DNA from: Hasllibacter sp. MH4015
Lineage (GTDB): Bacteria; Pseudomonadota; Alphaproteobacteria; Rhodobacterales; Rhodobacteraceae
Length of the DNA: 64,000 nucleotides
NCBI RefSeq assembly: GCF_020177575.1
Contig: NZ_JAHTBK010000001.1
Span: 2,992,001-3,056,000 of the forward strand
Reading direction: 5' to 3'
The translations under genes and the position numbers were made by a program. This document shows, piece by piece, positions 39,166 to 46,059 of this stretch. The notes under the pieces are model-generated. The model saw only the letters and a list, made by a program, of their open reading frames with translations. It made no database searches and had not been told where the DNA came from. The stretch's first letter is position 1, and the number at the start of each line of letters is the position of its first letter.

Positions 39166-39651
39166 CTAACGAAGATCGAGGCGCTTGAGAACCTTGTCGA
39201 CGATCGTGCCGTCGGCCATCTCATAGCCCTCGATCCGGCCATAATCCTCGAACCCGCGGGATTGGTAATACGCCAGCCCACTTTCGTTATCGGCGCGGAT
39301 ATTGGCGTTGATCCAGCCATAGCCGAGATCCCTGGCCACCGCGCGTGTCGCCTCGAACAATTTCGACCCGATCCCGAGCCCCTGTTTGCCGGGCTTGGCG
39401 AAGGTGGCGATTTCCGCGGCCTCCGGCGGCAGGTAGTCGCCCCCCGGCGCGATGTATTGGAAGCCCAGGATCTCCCCTTCCTCCGTTTCTGCCACGTGCC
39501 AAGCCCCGTTCGGGCGGTCCATCCAAGCCAGGATGTCGTCGCGCGTGATCGTCCCGGTCAGCGCCGTGGTGCCGCCGATGGCGATGATCTCGTTCAGCAG
39601 GGCCGCGACTTCACCGGCGTCCAAGGCGTGGGCGGGTCGAACCTTTATCAT
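39166..39651 (-). CDS. GNAT family N-acetyltransferase
   Basis: 161 aa. The GNAT fold is clear: the acetyl-CoA loop GKQGLGIGSKLFEATRAVA (Q/RxxGxG/A as KQGLGIG), ending NESGLAYYQSRGFEDYG. Length and the opening MIKVRPAHALDAGEVAALLNEII fit phosphinothricin-type acetyltransferases, but the substrate cannot be assigned. Its start overlaps the stop of the HD-domain gene (4 nt), so the two are one operon. Confidence 0.9.
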   Translation of the reverse strand: MIKVRPAHALDAGEVAALLNEIIAIGGTTALTGTITRDDILAWMDRPNGAWHVAETEEGEILGFQYIAPGGDYLPPEAAEIATFAKPGKQGLGIGSKLFEATRAVARDLGYGWINANIRADNESGLAYYQSRGFEDYGRIEGYEMADGTIVDKVLKRLDLR

Positions 39652-40235
39652 AGGGCCTCCAGAAGTGCGGCGTGGCGGGCGGTGAAATCGGCCCGGACCT
39701 GCGCAGGCGGGCGGAGGTGCAGGGTGAGCCCGTCGGTCATGGCGGGGTCGGGTTTGCCGAAAAAGCGGTCCGCCTCACTTTGAGTGAAACCGGCCAGCTG
39801 CGTCGCCTCCAACCACGCGGAGATCTTGTCGGCCCGCTTGATCGTGGCCTTGACGGTCTTGGGCAGCGCGGCGGGCAGTCCGAAGCGCAGGTGGATTGCG
39901 GCGGCCAGCCTGTCATCGAGCGCGCCATAGCCCGGCCCAACCGCAGCCTTCACGGGAGAAATCATGTCCCCGATCACATATTCCGGCGCATCGTGAAGCA
40001 GCGCGGCCAGCCGCCATTTCACCGGCGCATTGGGCGCGAGGCGGGCGTGGATATCGGTGACGAGGATCGAATGCTCCGCCACCGAATAGGCATAATCGCC
40101 CTTGGTCTGCCCGTTCCAGCGCGCTACGAAGGCCAGGCCATGGGCGATGTCGTCAATCTCAATATCCATGGGCGTGGGATCCAGCAGGTCGAGCCTGCGC
40201 CCCGATAACATCCTTTGCCAAGCCCGCGCCGCCAT
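39648..40235 (-). CDS. HD-domain hydrolase (YfbR/5'-deoxynucleotidase-like)
   Basis: 195 aa from ATG 40233-40235. The metal-binding HD signature is AEHSILVTDIHARL followed by LAALLHDAPEYVIGDMISPVK, with His-Asp and downstream Asp residues as in YfbR-type dNMP phosphatases. Helical throughout, cytoplasmic. Substrate inferred from family; nucleotides are most likely. It is coupled with the GNAT gene and divergent from a secreted-protein gene at 40444. Confidence 0.85.
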   Translation of the reverse strand: MAARAWQRMLSGRRLDLLDPTPMDIEIDDIAHGLAFVARWNGQTKGDYAYSVAEHSILVTDIHARLAPNAPVKWRLAALLHDAPEYVIGDMISPVKAAVGPGYGALDDRLAAAIHLRFGLPAALPKTVKATIKRADKISAWLEATQLAGFTQSEADRFFGKPDPAMTDGLTLHLRPPAQVRADFTARHAALLEAL

Positions 40236-40443
40236 CGGCCCCTCCTGTTCGCACGGACAATCAATGCCGTGGGAGGGGGAGCGCCGCAAGCGGGGTCAGG
40301 ATTCCCTGACTACCGCAGGTCCCGCCCATGCCGTAATCTCGAACCTATTAGACCTTCGGGTTCGGGGGCATTTCTCATCGCTCCGGCCCGCATCGCCCCG
40401 TATTTTCGGGGCGCCCCATTCCCCAAACTCCGCGAGGTCCGCC

Positions 40444-44599: not shown

Positions 44600-45460
44600 A
44601 TGGCTGGATTGGATCAGGCGCAAATCGCGAGATACAGGGCCGACGGGGTACTGCACCCGGTGCCTGTGATGGACGGAGCGGCGGCGCTGGACCTCAGGCA
44701 GCGTGTCGAGGCGCTGGAGGCCCAACACAGGCACGGCGCGGGCGGGCGCGACCTGACGCAGTATTTCCGGGTGAATGGACAACTCGTGATCCCGCTTCTG
44801 GCCGAAATCGCGCGTCTTCCTGCGATCCTCGACAAAGTTGAGACGATCCTGGGGCCGGATCTGCTCGTCTGGTCGGTGGAGTTGTTCATCAAGGAACCGG
44901 GCGACGGCACCATCGTATCGTGGCACCAGGACCTGACCTACTGGGGGATGGGCGAGACCGACGAGGAAGTGACGGCGTGGCTTGCGCTGAGCGACGTGTC
45001 GGTGGACGCCGGGTGTATGCGTTTCATTCCGGGCAGCCATGTGGGCGGACTTGTCCCCCATGGCGACACCTTCGATGCGGCCAACCTGCTGAGCCGCGGG
45101 CAGGAGATCGGAGGCGTGGATGAGACGATGGCGATACCGGGGCCGTTGAAACCGGGAGAGATGTCGCTGCATCACGGGCGGTGTTTCCACGCCTCGGCGC
45201 CCAACCGATCCGACGACCGGCGCATCGGATGCGCGATCCGCTACGTGACGCCGGAGGTGCGGCTGGGGTTGAACCGCGACTACGCGATGCTGGTGCGCGG
45301 GCAGGATCAGGCGCAAGGATGGATCAACGTCGCGGGCCCACGCGGTTTGTTCGACGTTCGCGACCTGGCGCTTTACGAGGAGGTTCTGGCGGCGCAAGCG
45401 GCAACGCTCGCCGCGGGGGCGGAGGGGAACGTGGCGATGTATCAGGGGACCAATCCATGA
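44600..45460 (+). CDS. PhyH-family Fe(II)/2-oxoglutarate dioxygenase
   Basis: 286 aa, phytanoyl-CoA dioxygenase (PhyH) superfamily. The iron ligands are the facial triad H-x-D...H: His109 and Asp111 in SWHQDLTYW and His197 in GRCFHASAPN. A 2-oxoglutarate-binding Arg is expected at DRRIGCAIRY (around 208). It hydroxylates an unknown substrate. The gene overlaps the next, which encodes an HD-domain di-iron-type protein, by 4 nt. That pairing is the layout of PhnY-PhnZ and TmpA-TmpB, which oxidise 2-aminoethyl- or trimethylaminoethyl-phosphonate, but no phosphonate transporter or other phn gene is near. GGGAGG precedes the ATG. Confidence 0.9.
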   Translation: MAGLDQAQIARYRADGVLHPVPVMDGAAALDLRQRVEALEAQHRHGAGGRDLTQYFRVNGQLVIPLLAEIARLPAILDKVETILGPDLLVWSVELFIKEPGDGTIVSWHQDLTYWGMGETDEEVTAWLALSDVSVDAGCMRFIPGSHVGGLVPHGDTFDAANLLSRGQEIGGVDETMAIPGPLKPGEMSLHHGRCFHASAPNRSDDRRIGCAIRYVTPEVRLGLNRDYAMLVRGQDQAQGWINVAGPRGLFDVRDLALYEEVLAAQAATLAAGAEGNVAMYQGTNP

Positions 45461-46059
45461 GCGATACGATCAAATTCACCCAGATGAAGGACGGCACGCG
45501 CGAGGAATACGAGCTTCTGGAGCGCCTGGAAAAACCGTTTCTGGCCCTTACGGCCGACCGCGTGCTTGAGGAGTTGCGTCGGCAGGAGCATATCTCGCTG
45601 GAAGGATACCGGATCACGCGGATGGAACATGCCCTGCAATCGGCCACCCGGGCGGAGCGGGATGGCGCCGATATCGACTGGATCGTCGGCGCCCTTCTGC
45701 ACGATATCGGCGATGGCCTCGCGCCGCAGAACCACGACCGCATGTCGGCCGAGGTCATCCGACCCTTCGTGCGCTGGGACGTGGCGTGGGTGGTGGAGCA
45801 TCACGGGATTTTCCAGATGCTTTATTACGCGCATCACTACAATTGGGACCGCAATGCGCGTGACCGGTTCAGGGATCATCCCTGCTTCGACAGCTGCGCG
45901 ACATTTTGCGAGCGGTGGGATCAATCCAGCTTCGATCCCGATTACGATAGCCAGCCGCTCGCCCATTTCGAGCCGATGCTGCGCCGCGTGTTCGCGCGGA
46001 AGGCCCACGCGCCTGACGTCGTGCGGGAAGGCGAAATCTCGCCGCTTGTTGCAGCATAG
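45457..46059 (+). CDS. HD-domain protein, candidate mixed-valence di-iron oxygenase
   Basis: 200 aa. Metal-binding residues of the HD superfamily are arranged as MEH (His58), LLHD (His82-Asp83), QNHD (His93), VEHH (His115/116), a YAHHYNW stretch and a C-terminal Asp in ERWDQ (155). More ligands are available than a simple phosphohydrolase needs, as in PhnZ/MIOX-type di-iron oxygenases. The short length and all-helical fold match PhnZ (about 190 aa). Translationally coupled to the upstream PhyH dioxygenase, it presumably cleaves the hydroxylated product of that enzyme. The alternative is a plain HD phosphohydrolase; substrate unknown. Confidence 0.82.
   Translation: MSDTIKFTQMKDGTREEYELLERLEKPFLALTADRVLEELRRQEHISLEGYRITRMEHALQSATRAERDGADIDWIVGALLHDIGDGLAPQNHDRMSAEVIRPFVRWDVAWVVEHHGIFQMLYYAHHYNWDRNARDRFRDHPCFDSCATFCERWDQSSFDPDYDSQPLAHFEPMLRRVFARKAHAPDVVREGEISPLVAA

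Follow-up and report, generated by a model that had tools for sequence, protein, structure and literature searches.

A pair of overlapping genes in the alphaproteobacterium Hasllibacter sp. MH4015, found in a stretch of 64,000 nucleotides that is referred to here as the window, encodes a PhyH-family oxygenase and an HD-domain protein (hereafter PhyH and HD), and raises the question of whether the two catalyze successive oxidations and, if so, of what compound. The first-pass annotation had likened them to the enzyme pairs that degrade organophosphonates, while suspecting that the substrate might not be a phosphonate. As described below, the pair can be read as a two-step oxidative module acting on a trimethylammonium or dimethylsulfonium ("onium") carboxylate, a proposal to which we give an even chance of being correct.

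The coupled genes and the hydroxylase

The open reading frames, their overlap, and the family assignments of the first-pass annotation agreed with the coordinates (Table 1) and with Pfam, and every residue it had listed was found in place. Its suggestion of translational coupling was also strengthened. The coupling is not a matter of chance: the overlap measures 4 or 1 bases at 25 of the 31 adjacent loci in one set of homologs. The HD gene occurs as a single copy in the source genome. The pair is surrounded in the window by AHCY and other genes that are either housekeeping or of unknown function, and therefore an attempt to deduce the substrate from these neighbors was uninformative. Another HD-domain open reading frame (39648-40289 on the minus strand, AEHS...LLHDAPEYVIGD) lies about 5 kb upstream; it resembles an ordinary YfbR-type HD phosphohydrolase and is unrelated to the pair.

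Table 1. Positions and supporting evidence of the coupled genes in the window
Feature	Position	Strand	Evidence
PhyH-family Fe(II)/2-oxoglutarate oxygenase, 286 aa	44600..45460	+	PF05721, AlphaFold, ligand conservation
HD-domain protein, 200 aa, probable mixed-valent di-iron oxygenase	45457..46059	+	PF01966, AlphaFold, Foldseek/VIA, ligand invariance
ATGA overlap of the PhyH and HD genes (translational coupling)	45457..45460	+	sequence; common to most paired orthologs

PhyH matched PF05721 with 108.9 bits (cut-off 22, E 5.6e-31) and carries the facial triad H109-x-D111...H197. In 43 homologs, H109, H197, and R208, the last of which is likely the 2-oxoglutarate-binding Arg, are invariant, and D111 is Asp in 42. 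The domain score and the triad thus mark PhyH as an Fe(II)/2-oxoglutarate hydroxylase, for which activity dependent on 2-oxoglutarate and O2 is predicted. The solved folds closest to its AlphaFold model (pLDDT 91) are those of ThoJ, SyrB2, SnoN, CytC3, and the proline hydroxylase H11, and the conserved motifs HQDLTYWGMGE and LLSRGQE are specific to PhyH.

Fold, metal ligands, and substrate residues of the HD protein

The HD protein matched PF01966 with 30.3 bits (E 5.4e-07). Its ligand set, H..HD..H..H..D, consists of H58, H82, D83, H93, H116, and D155, and is essentially invariant in 98 sequences from three subfamilies (about 60–86%, 51–60%, and 40–43% identical to the protein of the window, respectively) and in 39 more distant homologs belonging to other families and classes. 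A set of 46 closer homologs likewise keeps the six positions with next to no exception. The retention of the di-iron set in orthologs, which the first-pass annotation had proposed to check, favors an oxygenase. That annotation had given one ligand as 115/116: H116 belongs to the near-invariant set and H115 is not conserved, and a phosphodiesterase of the pattern H..HD..H..HH..D was rejected on this ground. The signature of the family can be written as LxGY(51)..R55..H58xxQ, HDIGD86, F119-Q120, and CxxxDQxxFDPxY. Invariant R55, F119, and R135 and the DQxxFDPxY motif are features of its own.

The AlphaFold model of the HD protein has a mean pLDDT of 94, and when it was searched against the PDB with Foldseek, PhnZ and TmpB were the sole matches below an E value of 1e-3. 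VIA-align 2 gave Z scores of 17.9 for PhnZ, 16.8 for TmpB, and 11.6 for MIOX, with 8.3 as the next best. The top three folds are therefore exactly the three HD oxygenases that had been characterized when the group was reviewed in 2020 (PMC8177086). In addition, a profile-profile comparison of the family with five TmpB-like proteins gave an E value of 2e-13 with the metal ligands aligned. Hence, HD is probably a di-iron HD oxygenase, with the cofactor and O2-dependent cleavage of a C-X bond suggested by the ligand set, the predicted fold, and the partnership with PhyH, and the coupling of a 2-oxoglutarate hydroxylase to an oxygenase-type HD protein that the first-pass annotation had recognized is borne out by the first two of these.

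It is also conceivable that HD is a metal-dependent phosphohydrolase, for example one acting on nucleotides in a house-cleaning role, and is coupled to PhyH by genome organization only. R55, which is situated three residues ahead of the first ligand His, is invariant in all the homologs, while TmpB has Met there, and an Arg at about this distance is a phosphatase trait; moreover, a six-ligand di-iron site exists in YqeK-type phosphatases as well (PMC8177086), and the HD gene often stands alone. The comparison with phosphohydrolases that the first-pass annotation had called for nevertheless favored an oxygenase on the basis of fold, with R55 as the caveat, because all HD hydrolases compared had Z scores of 8.3 or less (about 5.7–7 for YqeK, SAMHD1, PgpH, Rel, and PDEs, a list that is not exhaustive), as opposed to 11.6–17.9 for the three oxygenases. 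The H-x-x-Q sequence after the first ligand and the ligand spacing agree with those of TmpB, and hydroxylases of two unrelated 2-oxoglutarate-dependent families are repeatedly coupled to HD, as described in the next section. We therefore regard a phosphohydrolase as unlikely.

Similarity in fold does not place HD in the family of PhnZ or TmpB. The protein reached only 41 bits with TIGR03276 (cut-off 214.6), 35 bits with NF049941, the TmpB model (cut-off 300), and 27 bits with NF052439, the PhnZ1 model (cut-off 300), and its 14.6 bits with the MIOX model PF05153 were also below threshold (cut-off 25). By contrast, NF049941 gave 332–363 bits for three TmpB-like proteins of this bacterial family, so that the models are evidently able to recognize genuine members in it, and in a tree five TmpB-like proteins of that bacterial family formed a clade separate from the new HD family. 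The substrate residues of PhnZ, whose inspection had been suggested by the first-pass annotation, turned out not to be conserved. The YxxE loop is replaced by LxxY, with L48 and Y51 kept in 98–100% of the two subfamilies closest to the protein of the window and L/F..Y/F at this position family-wide, while Y30 and E33 are kept in all five TmpB controls. HDxGH is changed into HDIGD (D86) and the substrate Lys into Q120, both invariant or nearly so in the family, the corresponding residues of the TmpBs from this bacterial family being Y..E, HDIGH, and K. We take the last His of HDxGH to be a second-shell residue and the Lys to be a substrate residue, as in PhnZ. The glutamate of YxxE touches the amino group of the substrate in PhnZ and TmpB (PMC8177086). 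The replacement of these three elements leads us to expect a substrate different from those of PhnZ and TmpB.

These observations bear directly on the idea that PhyH and HD break down an organophosphonate as diverged counterparts of PhnY-PhnZ or TmpA-TmpB. PhnZ and TmpB are the solved structures closest to HD, PhyH weakly resembles the model for methylphosphonate hydroxylase (19.5 bits with a cut-off of 500), and TmpA-like proteins are partners of HD at other loci. However, HD does not come near the cut-off of any of the three HD models for phosphonate enzymes, its substrate residues are replaced, and the genes identified around HD and PhyH loci are those for carnitine, choline, and DMSP, with no phosphonate gene seen among them. 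The phosphonate assignment, which is very improbable, was rejected on these grounds, and the suspicion of a different substrate gained support from the residue replacements and the neighboring genes. The comparison with PhnZ and TmpB thus holds for the fold but not for the family, and HD is best read as a member of a new, widespread branch of HD oxygenases distinct from PhnZ, TmpB, and MIOX. A search of the literature for this family, for HD proteins in connection with carnitine, and for HD enzymes that carry out alpha-oxidation yielded nothing on the family, and none of the sources consulted records an activity for a member of it.

Distribution, pairing, and neighboring genes

With the family alignment as the query, members of the HD family were found in 109 of the 385 Alphaproteobacteria sampled (28%), and also in other Pseudomonadota. 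A scan of named genomes located them in many Pelagibacteraceae (SAR11), which are a very abundant ocean group, in a Puniceispirillum MAG, and in Mesorhizobium, Halomonas, Marinomonas, Alteromonas, Thiothrix, and others. Distant relatives were seen on seven viral contigs (L347-L353).

The association with PhyH was examined in 296 genomes of the bacterial family to which the source belongs, among which 98 were counted as HD-bearing after removal of genomes with only TmpB-like proteins or broken copies. PhyH is directly upstream of HD at about 39 of the approximately 100 HD loci, mostly with the same overlap, and remnants of PhyH, 34–37 residues long, lie just upstream of HD at others (L010/L037, L058). 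The PhyH-linked state requires at least 21 changes on the HD tree, five of which are forced by well-supported branches. A close PhyH, defined by an E value below 1e-40, was detected in 56 of the 296 genomes, comprising 53 with an intact HD, one with a broken HD, and two fragmented assemblies, and even where PhyH is not adjacent to an intact HD, 13 of 16 are in HD-bearing genomes. About 45 of the 98 HD-bearing genomes, on the other hand, have no close PhyH. The pair is therefore not obligatory, the coupling being conserved while about half of the carriers of HD lack a detectable close PhyH. PhyH almost never occurs without HD, and HD often does without PhyH, as would be expected if PhyH makes a substrate of HD that is available from other sources as well, and we infer that this is the case from these counts, which are uncorrected for phylogeny. 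In one case, L119 (G043) and L059, PhyH still occupies the place that is usual for subfamily 2 although its HD is gone, and a distant HD of subfamily 3 is found elsewhere in the same genome. The broken HD copies of L125 (G282) and L126 (G224) contain several in-frame stops.

Another hydroxylase takes the place of PhyH at 31 other loci, where a TmpA-like 2-oxoglutarate hydroxylase is encoded directly upstream of HD, mostly within 43 bases or overlapping. These partners scored 334–353 bits with NF049936, missing its cut-off of 400 but exceeding their scores with the gamma-butyrobetaine and trimethyllysine dioxygenase models; a search of the genome of the window, run without a positive control, gave no match to a TmpA-like protein. 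In Mesorhizobium and other Rhizobiales, HD is part of an operon in the order BKACE, HD, and carnitine 3-dehydrogenase, followed by genes for acyl-CoA dehydrogenase, CoA ligase, and a protein of about 260 residues. These operons encode no 2-oxoglutarate hydroxylase and thus lack the hydroxylation step. One subgroup of SAR11 has the TmpA-like hydroxylase and HD next to the gene for acetoacetate-CoA ligase and to divergent BKACE and carnitine dehydrogenase genes. On the plasmid pF045_1, a TauD/TmpA-like-HD pair is followed by genes for a choline-binding protein (OpuAC), choline dehydrogenase, and a betaine-aldehyde-type dehydrogenase. In a marine genus (g91, GC about 37%) from the bacterial family of the source, the pair is split over two DMSP loci: HD is directly downstream of the DMSP lyase gene dddP at nine of nine loci (L311-L315, L318, L319, L321, L322), and PhyH is directly downstream of dmdA, which encodes a DMSP demethylase scoring above cut-off, at six (L330-L332, L338, L341, L342). 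All five of these contexts concern trimethylammonium or dimethylsulfonium compounds, and the neighbors of the relatives therefore suggest that the pair probably belongs to an O2-dependent route for onium compounds, rather than to phosphonate breakdown, with hydroxylated quaternary-ammonium or sulfonium acids as the likely substrate class.

Some other arrangements were observed. The idea that the 837-aa class III CoA-transferase of the pF045_1 operon is a DddD found no support, its best NCBIfam matches being formyl-CoA and succinate-glutarate CoA-transferases. At L046, L050, and L221, HD is followed by a protein of the fatty-acid-hydroxylase (sterol desaturase) family, possibly a third kind of partner oxygenase. 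The region L209:517-4749 contains a PhyH-like gene, an SDR, a Rieske oxygenase (GbcA-like), and two tandem HD genes, the second of which has YxxE where the family has LxxY. In SAR11 with a GC content of about 28% (L181, L182, L246-L305), HD lies directly downstream of purF without a hydroxylase, often upstream of the genes for glutamate-cysteine ligase and glutathione synthase. At L064, L216, L224, and L226, most of which belong to a separate branch of the HD family, HD adjoins class II aldolase/adducin genes.

Co-occurrence points in the same direction as the neighborhoods, with the qualification that it is confounded by phylogeny and marine lifestyle: carnitine 3-dehydrogenase was found in 94 of the 98 HD-bearing genomes versus 124 of the 198 others, and DmdA above cut-off in 33 of 40 HD-bearing versus 9 of 40 HD-less genomes tested. 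The genome of the window encodes both (753.6 bits for carnitine 3-dehydrogenase and 680.2 bits for DmdA).

The carnitine genes also give rise to the main alternative to alpha-hydroxy onium acids as substrates, in which HD would act directly on carnitine (L or D) or on a different 3-hydroxy onium acid such as gonyol and cut it beside the hydroxyl group. A two-carbon acid would be formed together with glycine betaine (or DMSP), and PhyH and the TmpA-like hydroxylases would supply the 3-hydroxy acid. This alternative would account for the position of HD within carnitine-dehydrogenase/BKACE operons devoid of any 2-oxoglutarate hydroxylase, and the TmpA-like partners are related to gamma-butyrobetaine dioxygenase, the enzyme that makes carnitine. 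The near-universal presence of carnitine dehydrogenase in HD-bearing genomes fits as well, but the enzyme is also common in the HD-negative ones. Such a reaction would, moreover, be redundant with the carnitine dehydrogenase and BKACE of the same operon, and beta-hydroxy acid chemistry is without precedent among known HD oxygenases. We consider this alternative rather unlikely, if somewhat less so than a phosphohydrolase.

A candidate two-step module and its relation to known systems

In the two-step onium module that we propose, PhyH, as is typical of its family, would hydroxylate a small substrate at the expense of 2-oxoglutarate and O2 with Fe(II), and HD, with a di-iron center presumably built on its six conserved ligands, would bind the product through the new hydroxyl group and a neighboring anionic group and cleave with O2 the C-X bond beside the hydroxyl group, leaving a carboxylate. 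In PhnZ and TmpB, the carbon bearing the hydroxyl group is likewise turned into a carboxylate and the neighboring group leaves (PMC8177086). If the substrate is an onium carboxylate, the product would be a betaine or a DMSP-like acid. By analogy, X might itself be a carboxylate, so that R-CH(OH)-COO- + O2 gives R-COO- + CO2 + H2O, a suggestion that we make tentatively and with low confidence. Such alpha-oxidation, in which carboxylate replaces the phosphonate of the TmpA/TmpB reaction, could convert beta-alanine betaine into glycine betaine and CO2, or 2-hydroxy-4-dimethylsulfoniobutyrate (DMSHB) into DMSP and CO2. Where PhyH is absent, the hydroxylated substrate might be supplied by a TmpA-like hydroxylase or by carnitine metabolism, or might have an external source. 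The phosphatase-like R55, the uninformative neighbors in the window, and the frequent occurrence of HD without PhyH are points against the module, as are the BKACE/carnitine-dehydrogenase operons devoid of a hydroxylase and the confounding of the co-occurrence counts.

The enzyme class of HD is probably right and its substrate class fairly well delimited, while the reaction and the individual substrate are our proposals. Large marine fluxes of carbon, nitrogen, and sulfur run through carnitine, choline, and DMSP, the compounds to which the neighboring genes tie this widely distributed family, and the module, if right, would add an oxygenase route for onium osmolytes. The conversion of DMSHB into DMSP is known biochemically, the enzyme being unidentified in most DMSP producers, and Ruegeria pomeroyi DSS-3 is reported to lack DMSHB decarboxylase activity (PMC11306096). 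Which enzyme decarboxylates DMSHB in most of these producers, and how HD oxygenases switch substrates, would then become testable. A far-reaching extension, which we offer as speculation of low probability, is that the family provides marine bacteria, SAR11 among them, with a general O2-dependent oxygenase for hydroxylated onium acids, that some members perform the oxidative decarboxylation of DMSHB to DMSP or the cleavage of carnitine to betaine, and that PhyH and the TmpA-like hydroxylases are exchangeable first steps.

Among known systems, ThoJ, SyrB2, and SnoN represent the class whose PhyH fold is nearest to the hydroxylase of the window, which has the HxD...H triad of a hydroxylase; the substrates of that class are peptides and carrier-bound amino acids or polyketides, and PhyH differs from it in its own motifs and in its HD partner. 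MIOX has the HD oxygenase fold in common with HD, and a public record annotates one relative as "inositol oxygenase family protein," but the score below the PF05153 cut-off and the different neighbors set HD apart. The first-pass annotation had held that PhnY-PhnZ and TmpA-TmpB use exactly the same combination of enzymes. This is true of PhnY-PhnZ, in which an HD protein about 200 residues long, with the same fold and six ligands, likewise comes after a PhyH-type 2-oxoglutarate hydroxylase, although the identity of HD to PhnZ is only about 20–23% and neither the substrate residues nor a phosphonate gene context is shared. It does not hold for TmpA-TmpB, because TmpA is of the BBOX/TauD type and not a PhyH protein. 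TmpB nevertheless resembles HD in fold and ligands, a TmpA-like hydroxylase is the coupled partner of other proteins in the new family, and the class of onium substrates is likely common to the two.
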